Shown: piece by piece, positions 6,934 to 53,526 of the stretch
Layout of the letters: every line of letters begins with the position of its first letter
How positions within the stretch are numbered: the stretch's first letter is position 1
Assembly: GCF_000166135.1 (NCBI RefSeq)
Contig: NC_014666.1
Location: 930,001 to 994,000 of the forward strand
Source: Pseudofrankia inefficax
GTDB taxonomy: Bacteria > Actinomycetota > Actinomycetes > Frankiales > Frankiaceae
Direction of reading: 5' to 3'
DNA: 64,000 nucleotides
Position numbers and translations under genes: made by a program
Notes under the pieces: model-generated
What the model was told of the DNA's origin: nothing
Databases searched by the model: none
What the model saw: the letters and a program-made list of their open reading frames with translations, nothing else

Positions 6934-7008
6934 TGATCGGCGGTTCGGCCCTCCGGTGGTCGTTGTCGGGGCCTGCTGACAACCACCGGAGGGCCAAAAC
7001 AGCGATCA
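6934..7008. repeat. Palindromic repeat family B, copy 1 (hairpin between convergent genes)
   Basis: A long imperfect hairpin. The main arms are GGCCCTCCGGTGGT (6947-6960) and ACCACCGGAGGGCC (6982-6995), extended inwards by TTGTC/GACAA after a 2-nt bulge and outwards by TGATCG/CGATCA at the ends. The loop is ~10 nt. It sits between two convergent genes, so it can serve as a bidirectional terminator. The half-site GATCGCTGTTTTGGCCCTCC recurs at 52676 and, diverged, at 11122-11204, so this is a dispersed family and not a simple local terminator. Confidence 0.85.
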
Positions 7009-12802: not shown

Positions 12803-13285
12803 ATGAGCGAGCGCCGGGCAGATCGGCCTGAACGGGACCGGCACCGGTCGGACACGTACCGGTCGAGCGAGCCCGCGCCGGACCGGCGCCGGTCGGAACT
12901 GGCCGCGGTGAGAGCGCCTGCGAGCGTGTCGGCCGGGCTGGGCACCCGGGTGCGGGTGCACGAGGGCGGCCGGCCGGGGGAGTACGCGGTGGCGGTGCTC
13001 GACACGGTCGCGCGGATCCCGCCCGGCAAGGTGATGACCTACGGCGATGTGGCCGAGTACGTCGGCGGCGGTACCGGCCGCCACGTCGGCGCGGTGCTCG
13101 CCAGGTTCGGCTACCAGGAGGACGTTCCCTGGCACCGCGTCATCCGGTCCACGGGCGAGCCGAATCCCACCTCTCCCACCGAAGCGCTCGCACTGCTGAC
13201 CGCGGACGGCACCCCGCTGCGCCCCAACGGCGAACGCGTCGACCTCCAGGCGGCCCGTTGGGACGGCATGTCCACCAGCGAATGA
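12803..13285 (+). CDS. Alkyltransferase-like (ATL) DNA-repair protein
   Basis: The C-terminal ~95 residues are the DNA-binding domain of O6-alkylguanine-DNA alkyltransferases (VARIPPGKVMTYGDVAEYVG, then PWHRVIRSTG). In active methyltransferases the motif is PCHRV; here Trp replaces the acceptor Cys, so this is an ATL protein that recognises O6-alkylguanine and hands it to nucleotide excision repair. The N-terminal ~60 residues are Arg-rich and disordered. ATG 12803 is used; an in-frame start at 12791 is possible and neither has a strong Shine-Dalgarno. It corresponds to Mtb Rv3204. Confidence 0.88.
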   Translation: MSERRADRPERDRHRSDTYRSSEPAPDRRRSELAAVRAPASVSAGLGTRVRVHEGGRPGEYAVAVLDTVARIPPGKVMTYGDVAEYVGGGTGRHVGAVLARFGYQEDVPWHRVIRSTGEPNPTSPTEALALLTADGTPLRPNGERVDLQAARWDGMSTSE

Positions 13286-13829
13286 GCGCCAGGCTGAGTC
13301 CTACGTGGTGGTCGGACTCGGTCGGGCTTCGCGGCCATTAGGTAGGACTCGATCCAATGCCCCCTCCGGCAAGACTCGCCCGTTCCGGCCTCCCCTTGTC
13401 GGGAGGCCTGGCGGTTGCCCGGGTCCTACGCGGTGTGGCCCATCTCGCCCGCGGTCGGGCGGCAGGTAGGAATGGAGCCTGATCCGGGCCTTCTCCCGAA
13501 ACGGGCGCTGGGCGGTTCGGGGTCCGCCGCGCCTCCCGCCGATCTGCAGGTCGGACGGGGGTCCGGTTTCCATACCCGGTCGCGGATCTTCGGGGGAATC
13601 TGGCCGGCCCAGGAGGCAAGATCGCGAACCTGGTATGGATAAAAGGCGCATAGCGGGCGTGGGGCGACCGTTTCGATACCAGACTGGCGATCACCGCGGG
13701 TGAGCACGCCACCCAGGGCCGATGATCGCTGGTTTGGTATGGAAATCGGTGTGGAGCCGATCCGCGAGTAGCCCGACCGCATGCGTGCCGCGCAATCGAA
13801 GGCCTGTCGTGGATGGGAGCCGGCCGGGA
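13286..13829. other. 544-bp intergenic region holding the 186-bp element
   Basis: No gene is supported. It contains an inverted repeat GAGTCCTAC (13296-13304) / GTAGGACTC (13342-13350) just past the ATL stop, which may terminate that gene, and then the 186-bp dispersed element at 13565-13750. The area is locally less GC-rich, around TATGGATAAAAGG. Confidence 0.6.
13565..13750 (+). repeat. 186-bp dispersed two-palindrome element, copy A
   Basis: It consists of two imperfect palindromes. Unit alpha is GGTTTCCATACCCGGTCGCG with its partner AAGATCGCGAACCTGGTATG (13617-13636), followed by GATAAAAGG. Unit beta is TTTCGATACCAGACTGGCGA (13671-13690) with partner TGATCGCTGGTTTGGTATGG (13723-13742). 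A second copy lies in reverse orientation at 53136-53321. Conserved half-sites match position by position without any indel, while the spacers between them differ. No transposase or target duplication is visible. Confidence 0.85.
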
Positions 13830-14579
13830 TCAGCGGGCGGTGTAGCCGCCGTCGGCGAGGTAGACGCTGCCGGTCACGACCGAGGAACGGTCGGAGAGCA
13901 GGAACAGGACGACCTCGGCGACCTCGTCCACCGTGGCGAACCGCGCCATCGGGGCGAGCAGGGCCGCGCCGCGCATCTTGCGGCCTTCGCCCTGGCTGAG
14001 CATGGCCGTGTCGACGAAGCTGGGCGCCACAGCGTTGATCCGGACATTGCGGGTCGCGTACTCCAGGGCGGCGGTCTTGGTCAGCCCGATGACGCCGTGC
14101 TTGGCCGCGACGTAGGCCGCGGTGTCGGCGAAACCGACCAGACCGAGCACGGAGGCCATGTTCACGATCGAGCCGCCACCGGCCGCGAGCATCGCCGGGA
14201 GCTCGGCCCGCATGCAGTAGAAGACGCCGTTGAGGTTGGTCTCGACGACGCGGCGCCAGTCGTCGACGGGAATCTTCTCGATCGGGTGGCGGGGCAGCGA
14301 GATCCCGGCGTTGTTCACGGCCAGGTCCAGCTTCCCGAACGTCCGGACGGCCGCCGCGACGACGTCCGTGGCGGCGTCCGGGTCGGTCACGTCCAGCCCG
14401 AGCGCCAGCACCGGCGTGCCCGAGCTCGCGAGCTCGTCGGCCACGGCCTTGGCGGCGGCCTCGTCGACATCGGTGACGACCACGCGTGCGCCGGCCGCGG
14501 CCAGCTTGCGGGCGCACGCAGCGCCGATGCCGCCGCCCGCTCCGGTCACCAGTACGACCTTGTCCGCGCACTCTTCCAT
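13830..14579 (-). CDS. Short-chain dehydrogenase/reductase (SDR)
   Basis: A 249-residue classical SDR. The NAD(P)-binding TGAGGGIG is near the N-terminus, NNAG (~residue 90) stabilises the sheet, catalytic Ser lies in the NMASVLGLVG region, and the YVAAKHG motif supplies Tyr and Lys. An Asp after the second strand (VVVTDVDE) favours NAD over NADP. It probably oxidises or reduces a secondary alcohol or 3-oxoacyl group; the substrate is unknown. ATG 14579 gives the expected short leader before the Rossmann fold. It diverges from adnA. Confidence 0.9.
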   Translation of the reverse strand: MEECADKVVLVTGAGGGIGAACARKLAAAGARVVVTDVDEAAAKAVADELASSGTPVLALGLDVTDPDAATDVVAAAVRTFGKLDLAVNNAGISLPRHPIEKIPVDDWRRVVETNLNGVFYCMRAELPAMLAAGGGSIVNMASVLGLVGFADTAAYVAAKHGVIGLTKTAALEYATRNVRINAVAPSFVDTAMLSQGEGRKMRGAALLAPMARFATVDEVAEVVLFLLSDRSSVVTGSVYLADGGYTAR

Positions 14580-46785: not shown

Positions 46786-46862
46786 CGCGGGGTGGAGCAG
46801 CTCGGTAGCTCGCTGGGCTCATAACCCAGAGGTCACAGGTTCAAATCCTGTCCCCGCTACCA
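46786..46862 (+). tRNA. Initiator tRNA-fMet(CAT), copy 1
   Basis: A 77-nt cloverleaf with encoded CCA. Acceptor CGCGGGG pairs with CCCCGC apart from the first base pair (C1 opposite U72, unpaired as initiators need), and the anticodon stem has three G-C pairs (GGGCTCATAACCC), both initiator marks. Anticodon is CAT. TTGACA (46744) and TACGGT (46769) upstream, 19 bp apart, make a candidate promoter. The same tRNA recurs at 49130. Confidence 0.97.
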
Positions 46863-49129: not shown

Positions 49130-49206
49130 CGCGGGGTGGAGCAGCTCGGTAGCTCGCTGGGCTCATAACCCAGAGGTCACAGGTTCAAATCCTGTCCCCG
49201 CTACCA
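49130..49206 (+). tRNA. Initiator tRNA-fMet(CAT), copy 2
   Basis: Identical in all 77 nt to the copy at 46786, including encoded CCA. The upstream four bases CCGA match too, but the promoters differ, so each copy is likely expressed. No integrase lies near either copy. Confidence 0.97.
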
Positions 49207-53112: not shown

Positions 53113-53526
53113 TCCCACCCGTAGCCACCCGGAGCGCCGGTTTCCATACCCAACTGGCGATCACAGGCTAGTTGACCTGTCGCAGGACGCCTTGATCGCG
53201 AACCAGGTATGGAAACTGGCGCCTGGTGGCCGATTTGCTCCTTTTATCCATACGTGGTTCGCGATCATGATGAGCCACTGGCTCGGCGCCGCCTGAAGAT
53301 CCGCGTCTGGGTATGGAATCCGTCGCCGCCCGGCTGTGGCGAAGATCGACGGGGGCCCCAGCCGCGCCCGCGGGCCCGCCAGCTCCCAGCCGAGCCCAGC
53401 CGGCCGAGCCCAGCCGAACCCGGCCGCCCGGCCGCCCGGGCGGCCGGGCCGAATACGGCCGGGCGACCTGGTGGGGCTAGCCGGCCGGGGCCGAGCCCAG
53501 CTCTCCTCGGTCGGGGCGAGCTGGGC
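53113..53526. other. 414-bp intergenic region with the second 186-bp element
   Basis: No gene. It contains copy B of the 186-bp element, then ~130 bp of very GC-rich sequence with short CCCAGCCGAG-type repeats, and the terminator of the oxidoreductase gene. Confidence 0.5.
53136..53321 (-). repeat. 186-bp dispersed two-palindrome element, copy B (reverse orientation)
   Basis: Same element as 13565-13750 but inverted: base x here corresponds to 66886 minus x there, without any insertion or deletion. Half-sites: TTTCCATACCCAACTGGCGA (53141), TTGATCGCGAACCAGGTATG (53192), CTTTTATCCATACGTGGTTC (53241) and AGATCCGCGTCTGGGTATGG (53297). The regions between the arms have diverged completely, while TGGATAAAAG and GGTATGGAAA remain identical. 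Confidence 0.85.

Follow-up and report, generated by a model that had tools for sequence, protein, structure and literature searches.

Bacterial interspersed palindromes are mostly explained either as REPs driven by RAYT transposases or as dead MITEs. ERIC, RU-1 and other MITE-like intergenic repeats are about 100–200 bp long, lie between genes and have no transposase at hand. BIME and REP clusters are described as extragenic, present in many copies and composed of regularly spaced units in alternating orientation, and BIMEs are reported to bind IHF or gyrase (PMC2817692). For REPINs, common compensatory changes and cognate RAYTs have been reported (PMC3116915). Palindromes tagged with GTAG or CGTC are short, carry a fixed end tag and are spread between genes, the CGTC types having no known transposase, and the main text of the paper on them makes no mention of Frankia or Actinobacteria (PMC3733652). 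Titles and abstracts of the open literature on Frankia and Pseudofrankia repeats, with few subscription journals among them, contained no account of a four-site repeat.

Pseudofrankia inefficax (G000) is a soil and root bacterium related to Frankia. The window, the whole 64,000-nt stretch of DNA that was analysed, corresponds to G000:C1:930001-994000 of its 8,815,781-bp chromosome. Over the full window, CTAG falls far short of its trinucleotide expectation (18 observed, 62.5 expected), and GATC does not (444 observed, 426 expected). Two tRNA matches of equal score and length are located 2.3 kb apart on one strand, at 46786-46859 and 49130-49203. An earlier note on this DNA described a 186-bp dispersed element made of two palindromes kept in exact register. 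Its coordinates and register are right: position 13565 pairs with 53321 (sum 66886), and the two copies align without gaps over 186 bp, with 121 of the 186 positions identical (local blastn of 13001–14300 against the window, E=1.5e-16, 71% identity). The element itself is real, and it is better described as four half-sites (+ - + -) around a partly conserved 39-bp centre, hereafter the tetrad, than as two separate palindromes.

Anatomy and register of the repeats

The tetrad comprises the bipartite half-sites A(+), A'(-), B(+) and B'(-), each of the form ATACC-N6-GCGATCA or a variant of it, with the weight-matrix consensus ATTTCCATACCAGGCTGGCGATCATCGC. The half-sites are spaced 47-57-47 bp, and 47-58/59-47 in the diverged classes. 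Two sequence profiles were used: R1, based on sequence only, was built from 41 copies (alignment A1), and R2 from 38 more diverse copies (alignment A2). Measured between core starts, the spacing in 41 copies is 47, 57 and 47 bp and never departs from these values by more than 1, a few weak fourth arms (e.g. L018, L039 and L042) having been placed by the register. Since our element finder accepted only spacings of 46–48, 56–60 and 46–48, its register counts are not independent evidence. The constant spacing, to which the earlier note had attached its argument for selection, was nevertheless borne out in other genomes of the genus, also with the spacing left free to 200 bp in 101 sequences. ATACC half-sites then form 213 pairs, 66 of them +- at 47 and 35 -+ at 57, and CTGCG half-sites form 209, with 45 +- at 47 and 27 -+ at 58. 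The pattern ATACCN5GGCGATCA, with at most one mismatch, occurs at 98 places genome-wide, compared with 0 for a reversed-pattern control. On both strands of the window, the half-site weight matrix, whose training set is the tetrad family with both window copies included, gives eight matches above 5 bits, which are the eight half-sites of the two copies (Table 1).

Table 1. Positions of the repeats, their half-sites and associated features, in window coordinates unless a contig is named
Feature	Position	Strand	Remark
Tetrad element copy 1	13565..13750	+	class I
Copy 1 half-site cores	A 13572-13589; A' 13619-13636; B 13676-13693; B' 13723-13740		18-bp cores
Tetrad element copy 2	53136..53321	-	class I
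Copy 2 half-site cores	B' 53146-53163; B 53193-53210; A' 53250-53267; A 53297-53314
Intergenic DNA holding copy 1	13288..13821		convergent genes either side; outer limits vary by ~20 bp among genomes
Intergenic DNA holding copy 2	53120..53494
Family B two-half-site palindrome	6934..7008		75 bp
Orphan Dam-type adenine methyltransferase gene	G000:C1:8635801-8636475 (L234)		beside a GNAT gene

The diverged classes (CTGCGC or CTACCC; GTGATCAAGG type) have the order and arm signatures of class I. Each of the four arms in alignment A2 keeps GATC without exception, and the 39-bp A'-B centre is partly conserved as GGATAAA...CAAA...GGGC. Sites that face the same way are 104–106 bp apart, corresponding to ten helical turns of 10.4–10.6 bp. 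DnaA boxes were considered and rejected: the class I A' arm, TTATCCATA, is near the DnaA-box consensus, but the arms of classes II and III do not keep it. Several side features accompany individual copies. At L021 (~2005-2192; G000 3647628-3647810), the A'-B segment is inverted relative to the outer arms, with the switch located inside the half-sites. Tandem arrays of a GATC-containing 25-bp unit, with up to 15.6 identical copies, adjoin several elements (L053 1071-1461; also L050, L051, L054, L140 and L162); their units are 99–100% alike within an array and different between arrays. Similarity among some copies reaches about 150 bp further left (window ~13417 to 13759). The stretch to the left of copy 1, at 13290-13480, contains further inverted GTCCTAC/GTAGGAC repeats; tetrad-copy similarity can run into it (from ~13417 onward), and G004 has a similar stretch in the same place.

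The earlier note had suspected that a palindrome at 6934, termed family B, belongs with the tetrad to one larger family. Its sequence, TGATCGG-N6-GGCCC-N39-GGGCC-N6-GCGATCA, has the bipartite half-site of the tetrad in exactly the tetrad's inner 57-bp register. Among the pairs of GGGCC half-sites within 200 bp at the fetched loci, 37 of 80 are -+ at 57 bp and 2 of 80 are -+ at 58, while the other combinations listed occur at most once each. Profile R1 does not detect the copy at 6934-7008, and the link therefore depends on the shared grammar and register rather than on overall similarity; on that footing, the suspicion is supported. With up to three mismatches, the 75-bp pattern was found 283 times in G000, 325 in AgB1.9 (G006), 37 in G002, 29 in G004, 28 in G003, 5 in G001, 4 in G005 and 0 in G007, and once or twice in 4 of 26 other genomes of the taxonomic family. 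The backward-pattern control gave 0 in every genome searched. Of the five relatives displayed at the 6934 locus, four carry different sequence there, parts of which look like hairpins on inspection. In G004, an insert of about 150 bp interrupts the orthologue (G004:C1 ~2212247-2212808; L245, L251); this insert is bounded by terminal inverted repeats of its own and is, by eye, apparently another small mobile repeat.

Distribution, setting and constraint

A plain DNA search of the P. inefficax genome yielded 38 matches, the best paralogue of copy 1 being 84% identical. Profile R1 yielded 161 matches at E<=1, and the 139 matches listed at E<=1e-4 fall at 65 distinct places in the chromosome. The profile searches of this genome and its relatives thus place the element well beyond the two copies from which it had been described. 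At E<=0.001, R2 gave at least 83, 8, at least 75, 25, at least 63, 37, at least 89 and 0 matches in G000 to G007, respectively, with 75 first-look candidates scored per genome and opposite-strand matches included. The tetrad family is accordingly present in seven of the eight congeners. Among 27 other genomes of the taxonomic family, R2 detected one marginal match (G012), and R1 at E<=0.01 gave one or two weak matches in four. A scan of a genome collection matched five contigs of Frankia sp. AgB1.9 (G006); 14 other records from unrelated taxa, with one match each, were taken as chance. A phage or plasmid origin was rejected, as blastn in distant mode with window 13417-13760 found 0 matches in 50,697 phage and 72,556 plasmid records.

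The intergenic location claimed for the two window copies proved to be general, since none of the 49 other G000 tetrads overlaps a gene called by a simple codon-based caller. These 49 lie between convergent (21), tandem (18) or divergent (9) genes, with one unresolved; 14 of the 18 tandem copies lie closer to the 3' end of the upstream gene (hand tally). Both window copies are situated between convergent genes. The convergent enrichment is moderate, because 13 of 47 neighbouring gene pairs in the window are convergent and convergent gaps make up 24% of its intergenic length. For 37 family B sites, the setting is convergent in 15, tandem in 15, divergent in 3 and unresolved in 4, with no gene overlap. 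The neighbours had been characterized as small orphan or repair genes. One of them is repair-like, carrying the DNA_binding_1 domain of alkylguanine methyltransferases, but no general rule emerges, as the remaining annotated genes have ordinary metabolic, regulatory or housekeeping roles; the annotated neighbours include the alkylguanine-methyltransferase-like gene, an SDR, a DAO oxidoreductase, LexA, trigger factor and L7/L12. Where annotated, the gene families common to the element flanks are large, widespread ones. In an all-against-all comparison of flanking frames, the largest clusters are frames that overlap the element, and five representatives of other flank clusters are two short-chain dehydrogenases, an acyl-CoA dehydrogenase, a luciferase-like protein and an ABC ATPase.

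Comparison between sister species revealed where the copies resist change. In 11 orthologous pairs (G000 versus G006 or G004), 42 of 571 core positions have changed, as against 253 of 1328 in the rest of the element (P=1.2e-11). The difference is found in class I (cores 7/260, 2.7%; elsewhere 94/601, 15.6%; P=3e-9) and in class II (35/311 versus 159/727; P=4e-5), and sliding the core mask from -12 to +12 places the minimum of change at zero shift. In a broader tally, after filtering for flanks and gaps had retained 15 of 17 comparisons, 604 of 649 core positions and 1339 of 1635 spacer positions are identical, while the flanks are 87% identical. Only loci with a profile match in both genomes entered as orthologous pairs, and decayed orthologous copies are therefore under-counted in these figures. 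Since orthologues of sister species change far less in the half-site cores, these cores are constrained in place. Together with the 84% identity of its closest paralogue to copy 1, this supports the view of the earlier note that spaced units are under selection, rather than recently duplicated.

The copies differ in their history. At the copy 1 locus, the DNA of 13288-13821 is aligned in none of the seven congeners, which have 25 to 111 bp there instead. At the copy 2 locus, G004 lacks the 375 bp and has 3 bp left, while AgB1.9 retains a lone B' half-site with the outer flank, suggesting that the element probably predates that split; the other five congeners align too poorly across the gap to tell. 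Other tetrad copies are common to orthologous loci. A 357-bp block is 98% identical between unrelated loci at 898 kb and 998 kb of G000 (L114 3962-4318 and L115 3950-4305). G004 at the 898 kb locus and G006 at the 998 kb locus have a diverged element, which indicates that ectopic gene conversion is the likely cause. Gene conversion between copies could slow their divergence, and it could favour the cores only if the cores were its hot spots.

Protein binding, folding and mobility

In our estimate, the chances are even that the element is a dispersed protein-binding DNA site, with a predicted nucleoprotein complex near the 3' ends of genes. The supporting facts are a half-site grammar that stays constant across several species, the location of the copies between genes and the half-site constraint in fixed orthologous copies. 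According to this model, which is drawn from sequence comparison, each 18-bp half-site core would be recognised at two blocks, one a variable 5-mer and the other GCGATCA, separated by roughly one turn of the helix. The two half-sites of family B, or the four of the tetrad, would be bound by a host protein or by a set of variants differing in specificity, one for each class, and the bound half-sites would form a defined nucleoprotein complex near the 3' ends of genes. This complex would probably separate or end transcription, or manage supercoiling between converging genes, a BIME-like role proposed by analogy with the reported IHF- or gyrase-binding BIMEs. The copies would have spread in the past by a route other than a present-day RAYT transposase, and would now persist, be lost by deletion and sometimes be homogenised by gene conversion.

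The arms might instead matter through pairing, as a structured RNA or a bidirectional terminator hairpin at 3' ends. The copies have the matching 3'-end placement, the family B palindrome at 6934 is long and begins 7 bp past a stop codon with convergent genes on either side, and the single strands of copy 1 give better folds than their shuffled versions (z -3.1 and -3.6), which may be what an imperfect palindrome gives too. The B-B' arms match more within than between elements (z 2.6), and their mismatches lean towards G-U (102 versus 89 A-C), most markedly mid-stem. However, the A-A' arms have the opposite bias (113 A-C versus 59 G-U) and a z of 0.6, A-B' gives z 0.7 and A'-B z 1.4 (middle six, p=0.017), and the arms A'-B', which are unable to pair, match nearly as well as B-B' (z 2.4; the likewise non-pairing A-B, z -1.0). 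The compensatory changes that the earlier note had pointed to as a mark of folding were not borne out: 3 of the 20 pairs of the consensus fold have two-sided changes, and the covariation term is just -0.24 kcal/mol. Stem pairing in family B is 0.739 versus 0.736 in shuffled sets, with one short stretch at p=0.03. Some pairing signal does remain, in B-B', in the middle of A'-B and in the three pairs of the consensus fold with two-sided changes. Scoring around copy 1 gave no terminator-like site, and a search of the window at Rfam gathering scores matched only the two tRNAs and nothing at the copies. RNA folding was accordingly rejected, since the single strands fold well but covariation and the two permutation tests are weak or null, and we regard the hairpin as unlikely. 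With little or no covariation between arms, protein binding fits better than folding. The earlier note had left the choice between folded and protein-bound units; the folded version is not supported, as the arms change without clear compensation, and the protein-bound version survives.

A MITE-like, non-autonomous transposon, whose half-sites would bind a trans-acting transposase, is another possible account; conservation would then reflect past mobilisation rather than function in place. Such an origin agrees with the scatter of many copies over unrelated loci, with presence-absence differences between congeners at both window loci, and with an inverted-repeat arrangement whose outer arms are similar. 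Family B also ends sharply at 75 bp, as most of the short matches listed for a longer query stop within a few bases of 6934 and 7008. We nevertheless find a MITE-like origin rather doubtful. The preferential retention of cores in fixed orthologous copies is unpredicted for a dead insertion, and no recent burst is seen, since at the loci compared the identity between tetrad paralogues of a single genome reaches about 87% at most, one converted pair aside. The earlier note had seen no transposase beside the two copies, and none occurs among the 24 nearby proteins scanned at 17 loci. The empty sites of congeners have ragged flanks, and a target-site duplication was not established. As a candidate autonomous element, the 2-kb difference between L032 and L170 was rejected, for it holds a radical SAM gene and not a transposase.

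The invariant GATC in every A2 arm raises the further idea of methylation-dependent sites, at which an orphan Dam-type methyltransferase would set half-site occupancy. D12-class adenine methyltransferase genes (PF02086) are found in G000, G002, G004 and G006, the genomes with the most R2 matches (at least 83, 75, 63 and 89), and not in G001, G003, G005 and G007 (8, 25, 37 and 0). The G000 protein matches TIGR00571 (2.2e-59) and DpnM of the PDB (7.5e-52), and no restriction gene was present among the scanned neighbours. The pair of Dam-type and GNAT genes was also scanned in G004, and G006 has genes in the same order and of similar size, judged by size and order alone. Yet the carriers G000, G004 and G006 are close relatives and hence not independent, the G002 protein is diverged, falls under the TIGR00571 cut-off and adjoins a DndB-like gene, elements are present in genomes without a PF02086 gene, and 60.7 kb around the PF02086 genes contain no element. 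The correlation between the methylase and element counts is suggestive and confounded by relatedness, and as the main explanation, methylation-dependent occupancy seems very improbable.

Returning to protein binding as the preferred reading, we tentatively extend it, with a confidence short of even, to a genus-specific system of GATC-anchored nucleoprotein sites in Pseudofrankia, with about 350 in P. inefficax. A 75-bp two-site palindrome and a 186-bp four-site tetrad would share the 5-mer-N6-GCGATCA grammar, the 57-bp inner register and the ten-turn period. Such a system would have no RAYT origin, would be selected near gene ends, and might be tuned by the orphan Dam methylase, with a family of binding proteins of class-dependent specificity as its readers.

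Comparison with known repeat systems

Compared with ERIC and RU-1, the tetrad has its constraint concentrated in four half-sites held in helical register, and no target-site duplication was established for it. Unlike the GTAG- and CGTC-tagged palindromes, it has TGATCGC/GCGATCA as the end block at both ends; no GTAG or CGTC end tag is present, the conserved end block being GATC, and CTAC/GTAG occurs inside some class II arms only. A RAYT origin was rejected for the carrier genomes, because the Y1_Tnp profile (PF01797) has no match in G000–G006; its one match lies in G007, a genome without an R2 match. REPINs, the REP doublets of Pseudomonas, have two inverted conserved ends and a length-constrained spacer (PMC3116915), and family B is the nearest look-alike. 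In contrast to REPINs, covariation was tested and not found in family B, and it is weak at most in the tetrads. By the three tested features, namely the tag, the RAYT and compensatory changes, the repeats are not REPs or REPINs.

These repeats represent an abundant, rigidly spaced actinobacterial family without a REP tag and without a transposase in its carriers, and selection acts in place on its half-sites. The tetrad, with its strict geometry, provides concrete bait for finding its protein, and because two-site and four-site designs are related, it can be tested directly whether such repeats organise transcription or supercoiling between genes. The closest kind is the BIME/REPIN repeats, minus the tag, the transposase and the compensatory changes. 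Relative to BIME and REP clusters, the units of the tetrad are bipartite half-sites with a GATC block instead of GTAG-tagged palindromes, there are typically four per element in a fixed register, and the carrier genomes have no RAYT gene; the two are alike in their extragenic position, many copies, regular spacing and alternating orientation (PMC2817692).
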